DNA of 64,000 nucleotides from Yersinia frederiksenii ATCC 33641 (GTDB lineage: Bacteria > Pseudomonadota > Gammaproteobacteria > Enterobacterales > Enterobacteriaceae). A model generated the notes under the pieces. The model searched no databases and was not told the origin of the DNA. It saw only the letters and a program-made list of their open reading frames with translations. The number at the start of each line of letters is the position of its first letter. The stretch's first letter is position 1. This document shows, in pieces, positions 58,324 to 62,754 of this stretch. Both the position numbers and the translations under genes were made by a program. The stretch spans positions 4,555,642-4,619,641 of the forward strand of contig NZ_KN150731.1 in the NCBI RefSeq assembly GCF_000754805.1, given 5' to 3'.

Positions 58324-59166
58324 TCAGATATAAGAAGGGCGGTCGTTTTTCGGTTCAGCACCCAAGGTCGCTAATACCGTTTTGCCGATCTCACGAGCAG
58401 AAATCACTGCCTGACGAACTGCGCCAGAATCACCGGAGATAACCAGGATCACTTCGTTGCTGAAGCTGGTGCCTTGGGCTGGGGAACTGTAAGCCACCAC
58501 ATCAACATTGGCGGATTTAACGGCGGTATCAGCCATCAGAACGCCAATAGATGCCGGTGCACCGACGATCACACCGCAAGAGCGGCCCAGTGGGGCGCCG
58601 AATGCTTTTTCCAATGCATGACTGGCTCGGGCGCTGTACTGCAACTCAATGTGACCCGCTTCATTGGCGTAAACGTCACCGAAGGTCCGGTCTAACTCTT
58701 TCAGCGCGACTTCGACGGCGCGTTTTACATCTGAAACATCGTCACCACCGAAAATAATCAGTGAACCGTGACCCGCACCGCCTTTGGTATCGCGCGGCAA
58801 TTCAATGCTGACCACTTCGGTATTGGTGGCTTTTACCGCTTCATCTGCCGCCATAATGTGTGGTCCAGCACCGGTACGTGCGCCCAAAATACCAATAGAG
58901 CGATAACGTTTTTCCAGCTTCATTGCGTCTAGTAGGGCGCTGTCGACGTTGGCGATTACCAGTCCGACCGTGTCACCGATCGCGGTACCAACAAATTCCG
59001 TTAAACTGCAAGTTTTCTCAGCCATAGCCGTATCTCGTTGTTTATAGGATGGTTGTTTATTGAATGATGGTTTATCAAATGAGGGTGAGGAAGACGCCGG
59101 AGCGTGTTCGCTGACTTTCGCTATCACCTGCGCCATGATTTGGTCGATCAGGTCATTGCTTTTCAT
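58324..59166 (-). CDS. pduB: Tandem-BMC shell protein PduB (with internal PduB' start)
   Basis: 280 residues with two BMC domains (trimeric shell protein). The N-terminal extension (SNDLIDQIMAQVIAKV) is the part known to tie the enzyme core to the shell. An internal ATG at 59025 (MAEKTCSLTEF) is the expected PduB' start, giving about 233 residues. Between the two lies a tandem five-residue repeat, PSFDK-PSFNK-QPSYK, that makes the protein about ten residues longer than Salmonella PduB. Starts at TAATG overlapping pduA. Confidence 0.95.
   Translation of the reverse strand: MKSNDLIDQIMAQVIAKVSEHAPASSSPSFDKPSFNKQPSYKQRDTAMAEKTCSLTEFVGTAIGDTVGLVIANVDSALLDAMKLEKRYRSIGILGARTGAGPHIMAADEAVKATNTEVVSIELPRDTKGGAGHGSLIIFGGDDVSDVKRAVEVALKELDRTFGDVYANEAGHIELQYSARASHALEKAFGAPLGRSCGVIVGAPASIGVLMADTAVKSANVDVVAYSSPAQGTSFSNEVILVISGDSGAVRQAVISAREIGKTVLATLGAEPKNDRPSYI
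59041..59085 (-). repeat. Three 15-bp tandem repeats in the pduB linker
   Basis: TTTATAGGATGGTTG, TTTATTGAATGATGG and TTTATCAAATGAGGG stand in direct tandem, in frame, encoding PSFDK/PSFNK/QPSYK-type units. A small coding minisatellite that could change copy number. Confidence 0.75.
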
Positions 59167-59447
59167 TAGCTATTTCCCTTAGGTAAAAACTTCTCAACAT
59201 CAGTGTGTGGGCGCGGAATAACATGGGTTGACTTCACTTCACCCACGTTAGCGGCTGCAATGGCGCCAGCATCAGTGGCAGCTTTAACTGCCCCCACGTC
59301 ACCACGTACGATGACGGTAACCAGACCAGAGCCTATTTTTTCGTAGCCCACCAACGTCACATTGGCCGATTTCACCATGGTGTCAGCAGCCTCAATGGCA
59401 GCGGTCAGCCCTTTGGTTTCCACCATTCCTAGTGCTTCTTGTTGCAT
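59166..59447 (-). CDS. pduA: Major BMC shell protein PduA
   Basis: 93 residues, canonical BMC hexamer. The pore loop around [14 protein letters not shown] is typical of PduA, which lets 1,2-propanediol through. First gene of the pdu operon, and its upstream region carries a candidate PocR box at 59601-59615. Confidence 0.96.
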
Positions 59448-59600
59448 AAATACCTCGACGGAATATCAGGTGCCTTGTTCTGGCTTGAATTGTCATGTTC
59501 AGAAATAACGTTGTCAGGTTCGTGCTGGAACTGAATATACAAACAAGCAATGAAAAAGAATGGCTGTAATGAATTTACTGGCGAGAATGGTTAGTGATGA

Positions 59601-59615
59601 AATAACAAAATATTG
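59601..59615 (-). promoter_or_regulatory. Candidate PocR box upstream of pduA
   Basis: Minus strand CAATATTTTGTTATT. On the plus strand the wider segment 59601-59620 is also an inverted repeat (AATAACA-N6-TGTTATT). It fits the shared consensus and lies about 153 bases before the pduA ATG. Assignment to PocR is inference. Confidence 0.5.
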
Positions 59616-59901
59616 TTATTAAATATGTTAACTTATTATTTTTTAAGTCTATTATTTAATTGAGGTGTAAGAATAATTAGTTATGGCATATTCAGAATTA
59701 CAATTAATGCAGTGACATTGGCTATTATCTTTGGTATTTGCGCGCATGAATAAGAAAAGAGGGGTGGCTCACATTAAATGAGAAACTGCGAGCTTGATAA
59801 CAATAATAGAAAGAATAAATGACAAGAAAATCATATTTATTAATTATCCGCTGAGTTGCTTATTTGTAAGGCTTTGGGTGGTTTTTTTGACCATAAAATA
59901 G

Positions 59902-59916
59902 CAATAATTTGTTATT
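59902..59916 (+). promoter_or_regulatory. Candidate PocR box upstream of pduF
   Basis: CAATAATTTGTTATT, same orientation as pduF, about 140 bases before its ATG. Same motif as at 59601, 62176 and 62252. Confidence 0.5.
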
Positions 59917-60055
59917 GGCAGTCTAGTTTTTGTTTAGCTAATGGCAGTTTACGACAACACTTTCATTATTCGTCTCTTTATAGTGAGTAGGTCATGGGCC
60001 GTGCATTCGATACAGAACGTCATATAACTTAATTAATCACAAGCAGGGTAACCCT

Positions 60056-60877
60056 ATGAACGACTCGCTCAAAGCTCAGTGTATTGCGGAATTCCTCGGT
60101 ACCGGGCTGTTTTTATTTTTTGGTATTAGTTGTCTAGCTGCGATGAAAGTGGCGGGTGCCAGTTTTGGTCTGTGGGAAATTTGTATCGTATGGGGGCTAG
60201 GGATTTCACTGGCCGTCTATCTCACCGCCGGTATTTCTGGTGCTCATCTCAACCCCGCCATCACTGTTGCTTTATGGCTGTTCGCCTGTTTCCCTGGCCG
60301 TAAAGTTATTCCTTACAGCATTGCACAAGTCGCGGGTGCTTTTGGCGGTGCCGCTTTGTCATATATGTTGTATCACAACTTATTCACTGACTTTGAAACT
60401 GCTCATCAGATGGTGCGTGGTAGCTTGGAAAGCCTGCAACTGGCCAGTATTTTCAGTACCTTCCCATCACCGGCTATCAGTGTCTGGCAGGCCGCCTTTG
60501 TTGAAATTATTATCACCTCGATTCTGATGGGGCTGATTATGGCACTGACTGATGATGGTAATGGTGTGCCGCGTGGGGCATTAGGCCCACTATTGATTGG
60601 TATTCTGGTGGCGGTAATCGGTGCTTCTACCGGCCCGTTAACCGGGTTTGCTATGAATCCAGCACGTGATTTTGGTCCTAAATTATTTACCTTCTTTGCG
60701 GGTTGGGGAAAAATCTCGATGACTGGTGGGCGTGATATTCCTTATTTCATCATTCCTATTGTGGCACCTATTATTGGTGCGTGCCTGGGGGCGGCAGTTT
60801 ATCGCGTCTTTATTGGTAAAAATCTGGCTTGTAATACTTGTAAGTTAGATGATGAAAAAACAGTGAATGAGTCATAA
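60056..60877 (+). CDS. pduF: Propanediol diffusion facilitator PduF
   Basis: 273 residues, aquaglyceroporin (MIP) family with six TM segments. The two NPA loops are visible as HLNPAITV (near residue 65) and MNPARDFGP (near residue 201). The second loop in glycerol-type channels carries the Asp after NPAR, as here. Lets 1,2-propanediol and glycerol across the inner membrane. Confidence 0.94.
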   Translation: MNDSLKAQCIAEFLGTGLFLFFGISCLAAMKVAGASFGLWEICIVWGLGISLAVYLTAGISGAHLNPAITVALWLFACFPGRKVIPYSIAQVAGAFGGAALSYMLYHNLFTDFETAHQMVRGSLESLQLASIFSTFPSPAISVWQAAFVEIIITSILMGLIMALTDDGNGVPRGALGPLLIGILVAVIGASTGPLTGFAMNPARDFGPKLFTFFAGWGKISMTGGRDIPYFIIPIVAPIIGACLGAAVYRVFIGKNLACNTCKLDDEKTVNES

Positions 60878-61178
60878 CAATCAATGATGTCTTCCTCATC
60901 TTGGTACTGCAAACAGGTATTAAGATGAGGGAATTTCGTGATCTGTTCTAGTTAATGCACTGATTATAGTCCCCTGTTGATTATGACTCTGGTAAGGTTA
61001 ATTGTTATTTCTCTCCGATGTACCGGAGAATAGACCGCCACAGGGATATTAGGTTTTCATATTGTTAATGGGAATTAAAATATAACAATGCAGTAACACA
61101 TTTATCATTTCAGGGATGATTTATAGCAATATACGAAACTTAATAACAATAAATTAAAATTAACTGAGAGGTTTTATC
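60878..61178 (+). other. pduF - pocR intergenic region
   Basis: 301 bases. CCTCATCTT (60894-60902) and AAGATGAGG (60922-60930) form a nine-bp stem shortly after pduF, without a T run. TGTTATT occurs at 61003-61009 and AATAACAATAAA at 61142 in partial resemblance to the candidate PocR box; neither has the full motif. pocR probably has its own promoter here. Confidence 0.45.
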
Positions 61179-62081
61179 ATGATTTCTGCCAGTTCTCTAA
61201 ACTCAGAGCTCATAAATAAAATCGCGCAGGATTTTGCTCAGGCAACCGGGCTGGCTGTGGTGGTGGTAAATATTCACGGCGAAGAGATTTCTGATCTATT
61301 TAATTTCACTCCGTTTTGTCAATTGATGCGCCAGGATCCGGTTAATCACCTTCGCTGTCGAATGAGTGATCGTTGCGGTGGCCTTGAGGCTTCCAAATCT
61401 AATGAACCTTGTATCTATCGCTGCCATGCCGGGCTAACAGATTTTTCTATCCCACTGGTTATTGCCAGTCACTTGGTGGGTTTTGTTTTATGCGGCCAGG
61501 TGCGGCTGCATTCAGATGTTTACCTCATTGATATCCTTAATATTGATAATAATTGGAAACAGAACCCGGTACTGTTAGATGAATACCACAATGTGCCTAT
61601 TATGGATTTCTCGCGAGTGATCGCTTCGGCAGATTTACTGAAGTTGATCGTTGAGAACTGCTTGAAAAAGCATCTCAACTTTGTGGTGATTAATGACAAT
61701 ATGGGCAGTAAGGAACCCGGAAAAATACGCCCGGTACACCCTCATGACAGTAAAATGAAAAAAGCACTGCGCTATATTGATACTCATCTATCAGAAGAGT
61801 TGCGCCTTGAAGAGGTAGCCGCCAAGGTCTATCTCAGCCCTTACTACTTCAGCAAATTATTTAAAAAATATCAGGGCATAGGTTTTAATGCCTGGGTGAA
61901 TCAGCAACGGATGGTCAATGCGAGAGAAATGTTGCAACACAGTGATTGGAGCATTGCCAGTATTGCCAAAAACCTAGGGTTTTCACAAACCAGTTATTTC
62001 TGCAAAGTATTCCGTCAAGCCTATAATGTGACGCCGCAGGTATTTCGCTCACTTTCTTCTGAACGCAACAAAATGGAATGA
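61179..62081 (+). CDS. pocR: AraC-family activator PocR of the pdu/cob regulon
   Basis: 300 residues. The N-terminal PocR ligand-sensing domain (about 8-165) has the Cys-rich CQLMRQDPVNHLRCRMSDRC and CIYRCHAGLTDF segments. The C-terminal AraC double HTH (about 195-300) has LRLEEVAAKVYLSPYYFSKLFKK and IASIAKNLGFSQTSYFCKVFR. In Salmonella it activates pdu and cob with 1,2-propanediol. It sits between the two operons as expected. Confidence 0.95.
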   Translation: MISASSLNSELINKIAQDFAQATGLAVVVVNIHGEEISDLFNFTPFCQLMRQDPVNHLRCRMSDRCGGLEASKSNEPCIYRCHAGLTDFSIPLVIASHLVGFVLCGQVRLHSDVYLIDILNIDNNWKQNPVLLDEYHNVPIMDFSRVIASADLLKLIVENCLKKHLNFVVINDNMGSKEPGKIRPVHPHDSKMKKALRYIDTHLSEELRLEEVAAKVYLSPYYFSKLFKKYQGIGFNAWVNQQRMVNAREMLQHSDWSIASIAKNLGFSQTSYFCKVFRQAYNVTPQVFRSLSSERNKME

Positions 62082-62175
62082 CAGTTATTGATTTAATATC
62101 AATTGGTCATGTTTTTAATTCATATTTTCTTATTTAAAAATTAAAATAGTAATTGGTTTTAAAATTAATTAATGA

Positions 62176-62190
62176 CAATTTTTTGTTATT
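62176..62190 (+). promoter_or_regulatory. Candidate PocR box 1 upstream of cbiA
   Basis: CAATTTTTTGTTATT, oriented toward cbiA; 76 bases before the second copy. Confidence 0.5.
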
Positions 62191-62251
62191 AAACCAAAGG
62201 GGGAAGTTAACCTAACAAACTGTTACTAAGTGATTTTTTCAGGGTGGATGG

Positions 62252-62266
62252 CAATTTTTTGTTATG
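62252..62266 (+). promoter_or_regulatory. Candidate PocR box 2 upstream of cbiA
   Basis: CAATTTTTTGTTATG, matching the other three at 14 of 15 positions or better when W is allowed in the middle. Confidence 0.5.
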
Positions 62267-62506
62267 GTTGCACAAAAAAAATAGCAAATAAAAAATGAAA
62301 TTAACCATTTTTTATTTGTGGAAAAGAGTATATTAACCTTAATCAAATTTAATAAGTCACTTGACGTTAAAACTGTGTAAATAAAGAGATAAAATCTATA
62401 ACGAAATAGAAATAAAATAACAGAATCTAACATAGTGTAGTTACTGAGATGGTTATGCCAAAAGTTATTGGAGTTGCAGTTAACATCTTGCGGCTTCAAG
62501 AATAAA

Positions 62507-62660
62507 AGGCATGTTATGCACTAAAGCATAACTGGGAAGGGGGTGACAATCCCCCGCAGCCCCCGCTGCTGTGATGCTGACGAACCCGTAGAAACCACTG
62601 ATCCACAAGATTGGGAAGGTGCGGGAGAGGATGACGCTAAGCCAGAAGACCAGCCCGCTC
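62507..62660 (+). promoter_or_regulatory. Cobalamin riboswitch aptamer
   Basis: The conserved blocks appear in order: GGGAAGGGGGTGACAATC, CCCCCGCAGCCCCCGCTGC with CTGTGA, GGGAAGGTGCGGGAGAGG, and the B12 box TAAGCCAGAAGACCAGCC (62638-62655). Located just before the cbi operon, where cobalamin binding is expected to lower expression. Confidence 0.93.
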
Positions 62661-62754
62661 AGTAAAAGATTTTCAACTCCTTCGGTGGGAAGCGGGTTGT
62701 CATCAGATGCGCGCAGCGGTGACGTTGCGCAGATGCACCTTTTTGACACTGCAT

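Follow-up and report, generated by a model that had tools for sequence, protein, structure and literature searches.

Here we describe a 17-bp sequence that occurs four times in Yersinia frederiksenii ATCC 33641, upstream of pduA, pduF and the cbi genes, in a stretch of 64,000 nucleotides (the window; contig NZ_KN150731.1 of assembly GCF_000754805.1, positions 4,555,642 to 4,619,641 of the forward strand). The four copies are very probably operator sites of PocR, the 1,2-propanediol-responsive activator of the AraC family encoded between them. A PocR box had been proposed here from the letters of the window, and comparison of sequences supports this original prediction, as the motif tracks pocR, is conserved, and has a layout in agreement with a footprint known from Salmonella. 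The four sites would be the operator of an already known regulator, and it is their predicted grammar that adds something: a 17-bp recognition sequence with steady distances is directly testable, it points to pduF, located ahead of pocR, as a promoter that PocR may target and through which positive feedback could arise, and microcompartment expression driven by PocR in laboratory strains may gain a design rule from it.

Control of the pdu and cob/cbi operons by PocR is taken from papers on Salmonella (PMC11264322, PMC4600919, PMC4245221); the first of these describes the interaction of PocR with its promoters as still unclear. The accessible portions of the PocR literature contain neither a PocR footprint from Yersinia nor a PocR consensus, the latter possibly being printed in Rondon and Escalante-Semerena 1996 or Chen et al. 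1995, and no description of a Yersinia PocR operator was met in literature listings.

The four sites and the refined motif

The original prediction had reported four copies of a 15-mer, each preceded by purines. Their coordinates and strands proved exact on re-check, and AA, AG, GA and GG precede CAAT. All four sites lie upstream of promoters of PocR-controlled operons and face them (Table 1), in three intergenic regions of 33–36% G+C. With the window excluded, 17 other pocR-bearing Yersinia genomes contributed 66 sites to a matrix, which yielded the refined 17-bp motif TRRCAATWWTTTGYTRT. C, A and A at positions 0–2 and T at positions 8, 11 and 13 are invariant (66/66), and T three bases ahead of the C is near-invariant (62/66). 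The final K of the earlier consensus is not conserved, and Y predominates at position 10 and R at position 12. The training sites were the matches with the fewest mismatches to the earlier 15-mer in the corresponding regions and are not wholly independent of it; they fall in the same columns of the alignments.

Scored with this matrix on both strands of the 64 kb, the four copies rank first to fourth (24.6, 24.3, 23.4 and 23.1), and the next match reaches 13.1. Dinucleotide shuffles (1000 per intergenic region) gave maxima of 18.5 and 18.8, versus 23–25 for the four sites. With up to two mismatches the earlier pattern, which had been fitted to the sites, matches the window 7 times, versus a mean of 2.1 in 100 shuffles.

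Link with pocR and genomic specificity

The motif occurs with pocR and not without it: among 25 Yersinia genomes the exact 17-mer is present in 18/18 with pocR (called at E <= 1e-60) and in 0/7 without. These genomes hold 64 exact matches, 61 at the pdu-pocR-cbi locus (two of them, on G004:C56 at a contig end, assigned by their 77-bp spacing) and 3 elsewhere. An equal density in unrelated DNA, on which the original prediction would have had to be given up, is contradicted by these whole-genome counts. Matches at the locus arise by construction, and the informative part is the rarity elsewhere and the absence from genomes without pocR. Off-locus exact copies include ones in G003:C28 and G024:C2, and the pattern read backwards matches 5 times in the same 25 genomes.

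In the 4.94-Mb genome of the window the earlier pattern has 5 exact matches. Four are the sites described here and the fifth lies in a coding frame; as this frame carries the identical 15 letters in four further Yersinia loci (L099–L102), the match reflects protein conservation. The relaxed pattern CAATNNTTTGYTRTD gave 12 matches in this genome, 8 of them off-locus. These were not accepted as further regulon members, since 7 of the 8 lie inside open frames; at the eighth (G000:C1:3717047) no complete frame of at least 70 amino acids covers the position. Exact copies outside listed frames in G007 and G008 (L103 and L104) were dropped as unlinked; the one in L104 is located near a mobilisation-like frame, as judged by eye.

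Conservation and spacing

Conservation in other Yersinia, on which the original prediction also depended, was found at all three promoters in the 17 other pocR-bearing genomes, apart from the cbi side of L049, which is unreadable because the contig ends there. The pduA site differs by 0–1 mismatch in 17/17 and stands in the same alignment column, and the distal cbi site is present in 16/16 genomes whose sequence extends there (0–3 mismatches to the earlier pattern). Three mismatches were seen in two Yersinia sites only, pduF of L036 and distal cbi of L037. For the four groups of Yersinia sites the mean identity per column is 0.85–0.96 within the sites versus 0.60–0.74 in the 30 bp upstream; good conservation was seen in the 30 bp downstream as well (pduA 0.94, pduF 0.86). 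The sites are thus conserved at orthologous promoters beyond drift, with the qualification that in other genera the site at pduA is degenerate and the cbi pair is missing from 10/40 loci. In 17/17 Yersinia the spacing of the cbi pair is 75–78 bp (search span 70–81).

Downstream of each proximal site a −10-like hexamer stands at a steady distance, counted from the start of the site. In Yersinia it is found at +79 to +81 in 53/53 promoters examined, namely at +79 in 18/18 pduA promoters, at +80 in 17/18 and +81 in 1/18 pduF promoters, and at +79 in 16/17 cbi promoters, the remaining one (+80) being that of the window. Outside Yersinia the range of +79 to +81 holds for 37/37 pduF and 32/37 pduA promoters, with the other 5 pduA hexamers at +83. 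None of the three proposed promoters (pduA, pduF, cbi) came up in a scan for the sigma-70 consensus, so the −10 positions are assigned by conservation only.

A similar distance of the pduA and pduF copies from their ATGs (about 140–155 bp) had been pointed out earlier, and this did not hold as a constraint: from the C of the motif to the start codon there are 161–329 bp at pduA and 153–286 bp at pduF among 18 Yersinia. The distance varies because of extra sequence in some leaders, which by eye resembles enterobacterial repetitive intergenic consensus (ERIC) repeats. Such ERIC-like insertions were noticed in the pduA leader of L033, L042 and L045 and in the pduF leader of L034, L039, L042, L045 and L049, between the −10-like hexamer and the start codon, with the operator-to-promoter distance unchanged.

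The sites in other genera

Out of 48 named loci, 7 from Yersinia and the truncated L097 were set aside and the remaining 40 were tested with the Yersinia matrix (alignments cover 28 of them). Sites were recovered in Citrobacter, Klebsiella, Kosakonia and Salmonella, and the best match exceeds shuffles (p <= 0.05, 60 shuffles each) in 40/40 pduF, 29/40 pduA and 32/40 cbi regions. At pduF it lies 150–158 or 232–237 bp ahead of the ATG in 36/40 loci, and the site TAGCAATAATTTGTTAT is identical to the letter in the window, in two Citrobacter loci (L056, L060) and in one Klebsiella locus (L078). A cbi pair is recognisable in 30/40 loci, with a spacing of 76 bp in 26 and of 54, 75, 77 and 78 bp in one each; the 54-bp spacing is about two helical turns shorter than 76 bp.

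For the analysis of spacing L092–L094 were dropped (37 loci left), and for cbi also L056, L060 and L087–L091, which have no recognisable pair (30 left); the distal cbi position of L079 was set by hand. The best match within a set stretch was taken in these groups, so their spacings lean towards it; the counts of regions above shuffles come from the unrestricted search.

Proposed operator grammar and comparison with known systems

Around the strong sites weaker elements were found. In each of the six proximal groups, which represent three promoters in two clades and hence not six independent cases, the mean matrix score by offset peaks at +52 or +53, where a motif-like element overlaps the presumed −35, e.g. 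GCCATTCTTTTT at pduA and ACCATTTTTT at Yersinia cbi. The offset +21 is third in the mean over groups and second in Yersinia pduF and non-Yersinia cbi. As the mean scores at these offsets are all negative, both kinds of element are weak matches. Upstream, an offset of −78 or −79 is the best for the distal pduF site in 36/37 non-Yersinia and 12/18 Yersinia loci, whereas at pduA an offset of −65 has the best mean and is individually best in only 13/37 and 3/18, respectively. The distal sites of pduF and pduA in the window are degenerate, and the opposite strand of nearly the same pduA stretch (59668–59684, plus strand) scores 11.4, rank 6 in the window.

The weaker copy about 21 bp downstream and the motif-like element over a weak −35 suggest that PocR may line one face of the DNA. 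One strong proximal site, starting about 79–80 bp before the −10-like hexamer, is present at each of the three promoters, and at the cbi promoter a second strong site stands 76 bp further upstream. PocR would extend from the proximal site to the −35 and recruit RNA polymerase to a poor promoter, with help from the distal site. We tentatively propose that the PocR promoters of this bacterial family share a single grammar. Counted from the strong site (0), it would place a helper site upstream at a distance of about 65, 76 or 78 bp, a weak repeat in phase at +21, a half-site for PocR at about +53, where it covers the −35, and the −10 at +79/80. PocR would then line the DNA on one face between the strong site and the −35; the same tentative reading holds that published pdu boxes 215 bp apart are a misassigned pduF operator.

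The closest known system is the cob promoter (Pcob) of Salmonella, where two PocR boxes, both needed, measure 20 and 48 bp, with a gap of 52 bp between them and 9 bp from the second to the −35 (PMC11264322, which quotes the original S. Typhimurium footprint of Rondon and Escalante-Semerena 1996). Regulator and promoter are the same as here, and a short distal box is likewise combined with a long proximal one next to the −35. In Salmonella L058, counted by hand, a single distal site and a tandem proximal site (+21) fit the 20/52/48/9 geometry within about 4 bp, the comparison being one of lengths and spacing and not of footprint letters. The Salmonella cbi pair, formed by the two best motif matches, has a spacing of 76 bp in L058 and of 75 bp in L067, versus 76 bp in the window.

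For the Salmonella pdu promoter two putative PocR boxes 215 bp apart, with 80% and 56% similarity, are given in PMC11264322; they share the intergenic region and the regulator with the pduA and pduF sites described here. A 16-of-20 match with a 215-bp gap does exist in L058, but it is the pduF operator on the other strand. As box I of this 215-bp pair is the reversed pduF operator, the published box I of pdu may be that of pduF. In the same pair the second box scored 23 of 48 and not 56%, with the box register guessed and a strain, L058, that differs from LT2. In L067 the best pdu box pairs have gaps of 212, 214 and 216.

Activators of the AraC family use tandem half-sites of the araI1–araI2 type. 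The likeness consists in a direct repeat with a period of about 21 bp next to the −35, and PocR has an AraC-type pair of helix-turn-helix motifs. Here, however, the second repeat is weak, the strong half-site stands at a greater distance from the −35, and there is an extra distal site.

Points against the assignment and alternative explanations

Several observations weigh against assigning these sites to PocR or against parts of the proposed layout. In loci outside Yersinia the site at pduA is degenerate, and its position gives the best match in only 9/40, while in 28/40 (19 among the 29 above shuffles) the best pduA match is the near-palindromic pduF site on the other strand. A cbi-side match at p <= 0.05 is missing in 8/40 loci (L056, L060, L087–L091, L093), four of which (L056, L060, L088, L093) have a cbiA match nevertheless; L092 and L094 pass at cbi only by matches elsewhere, hence the pair in 30/40, and in L092–L094 the best pduF matches also lie at other positions. 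The +21 repeat is weak and falls outside the best six offsets in Yersinia pduA and cbi, and the 30 bp downstream of the Yersinia pduA site are as conserved as the site (0.94 vs 0.96). When the same TATAAT criterion is applied to the 30 non-Yersinia cbi promoters, it selects TATTTT at +62/63 in 19 and a hexamer at +79 in the other 11; with a looser pattern confined to +76 to +83 the hexamer falls at +79 in 29/30. Finally, in a draw of 394 genomes across the order the exact 17-mer is present in 68, i.e. in 4/5 with pocR and, among the matches listed, in 64/389 without a pocR match. The pocR search scored up to six candidates per genome in the 25 matches listed, and both draws are taken as the same 394 genomes from their equal size and handles. 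We take the latter 64 as background, and the 17-mer alone is consequently no sign of pocR.

Some of the missing cbi sites go together with a missing cbiA match. Neither a cbiA match nor a cbi-side site is present in L087, L089, L090 and L091, and all four keep the pduF site; this fits sites being kept only where the target operon is kept. Against this idea stand L056, L060, L088 and L093, with cbiA and without the site, and L092–L094, which are off-scheme at pduF or cbi. Judged from its frames, Escherichia L087 (5916–9356) has pocR, then a riboswitch-like leader and then cobU-, cobS- and cobT-like frames. In L089, L090 and L091 pocR is likewise followed by a cobalamin-riboswitch-like leader, cob-type frames being seen in L087 only.

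It is improbable that another DNA-bending or global factor (integration host factor (IHF), CRP, ArcA or H-NS) binds the sites in place of PocR and co-regulates the locus. IHF is required for cob/pdu transcription in Salmonella, and the site, read in reverse complement, comes within about one position of the IHF core. Yet the base which would have to be A for this core is T or C in 186/204 site instances, A in 15 and G in 3, and the core itself, WATCAANNNNTTR, is found near the sites in only 3/204 cases, all at non-Yersinia pduA and 23 bp upstream. The CRP consensus TGTGA-N6-TCACA was not found on the promoter strand in any of the 8 groups. Crp and Arc control of the pdu and cob operons has been reported as well (PMC4600919 and PMC4245221), but near-confinement to one locus and to pocR-bearing genomes is not what one would expect of a global factor. 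Owing to these consensus tests and to the confinement of the motif, IHF and CRP were rejected as primary explanation.

Still less probable is an A/T-rich element contacted by RNA polymerase itself, similar to an UP element. A fixed distance to the −10-like hexamer would be expected of such an element too, but about 80 bp separate the start of the site from the −10, more than is usual for an UP element, and the distal cbi copy is located 76 bp further upstream. Moreover, the invariant C, the near-invariant G and the spaced blocks are unlike a plain A/T tract, and there would be no reason for an UP element to go together with pocR.

An accidental resemblance within AT-rich upstream DNA has in its favour the low G+C content (33–36%), the extra copies at two mismatches and the 17-mers of the 64/389 pocR-less genomes. 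Its probability is practically negligible, and it was rejected as primary explanation in view of scores of 23–25, where 1000 shuffles of each region gave <=18.8, of the conservation and spacing seen in several genera, and of the 3 off-locus matches in 25 Yersinia genomes.

Surroundings of the sites and the region upstream of pocR

The features of the window are collected in Table 1. The product of pocR, an AraC-family activator, is the presumed protein binding the four sites. The cobalamin riboswitch, followed by a gene with a CbiA domain, is a second control, separate from the PocR-type sites.

Table 1 Sites, putative promoter elements and neighbouring genes in the window; offsets are counted from the start of the proximal site
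Feature	Position	Strand	Remarks
pduA	59166-59447	minus	BMC domain
−10-like hexamer TATATT, pduA promoter	59534..59539	(−)	79 bp from site start; putative
Motif-like element, pduA +52	59550..59566	(−)	CAGCCATTCTTTTTCAT; over presumed −35; weak match, putative role
Proximal PocR-type site, pduA promoter	59602..59618	(−)	TAACAATATTTTGTTAT; earlier 15-mer at 59601-59615
Candidate degenerate distal site, pduA	59667..59683	(−)	65 bp upstream of proximal site; score −4.3; uncertain
Degenerate distal site, pduF	59820..59836	(+)	TGACAAGAAAATCATAT; 79 bp upstream; score 3.1
Proximal PocR-type site, pduF promoter	59899..59915	(+)	TAGCAATAATTTGTTAT
Weaker direct repeat, pduF +21	59920..59936	(+)	AGTCTAGTTTTTGTTTA; second-best offset in Yersinia pduF; mean score negative
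Motif-like element, pduF +53	59952..59968	(+)	Over presumed −35; weak match, putative role
−10-like hexamer TATAGT, pduF promoter	59979..59984	(+)	80 bp from site start; putative
pduF	60056-60877	plus	MIP channel family
pocR	61179..62081	(+)	PF10114 PocR sensory domain, E 7e-43; HTH_AraC, E 2.6e-23
Distal PocR-type site, cbi promoter	62173..62189	(+)	TGACAATTTTTTGTTAT
Proximal PocR-type site, cbi promoter	62249..62265	(+)	TGGCAATTTTTTGTTAT; 76 bp after distal site
Weak half-site, cbi +21	62270..62286	(+)	CAA in register, by eye; putative role
Motif-like element, cbi +53	62302..62318	(+)	TAACCATTTTTTATTTG; over presumed −35; putative role
−10-like hexamer TATATT, cbi promoter	62329..62334	(+)	80 bp from proximal site; putative
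Cobalamin riboswitch	62494..62672	(+)	cbiA leader; RF00174, 103.5 bits

Since pduF precedes pocR, PocR may raise its own level through the pduF promoter. Autoregulation through its own upstream region was considered and is unsupported as far as a strong site is concerned, the best scores upstream of pocR being <=7.5 in 12 loci versus 23–25 for the four sites. A sequence present in all 18 aligned Yersinia, ATAACAAT (window 61140–61156, about 30–35 bp before the pocR ATG), is a weak motif match. Between pduF and pocR (window 60890–60940) there is a strong hairpin formed by TTCCTCATCTT and AAGATGAGGGAA, which, judged by eye, most of the 18 Yersinia in the alignment share; its folding energy is −26.7 kcal/mol (z −3.9, 83-nt piece) and no T run comes after it.

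Across the presumed cbi −35 the window contains a perfect 13-nt inverted repeat, CAAATAAAAAATG / CATTTTTTATTTG (62285–62318), and Salmonella L058 has, by eye, a different short dyad, AAACTG CAC CAGTTT, at a similar place.

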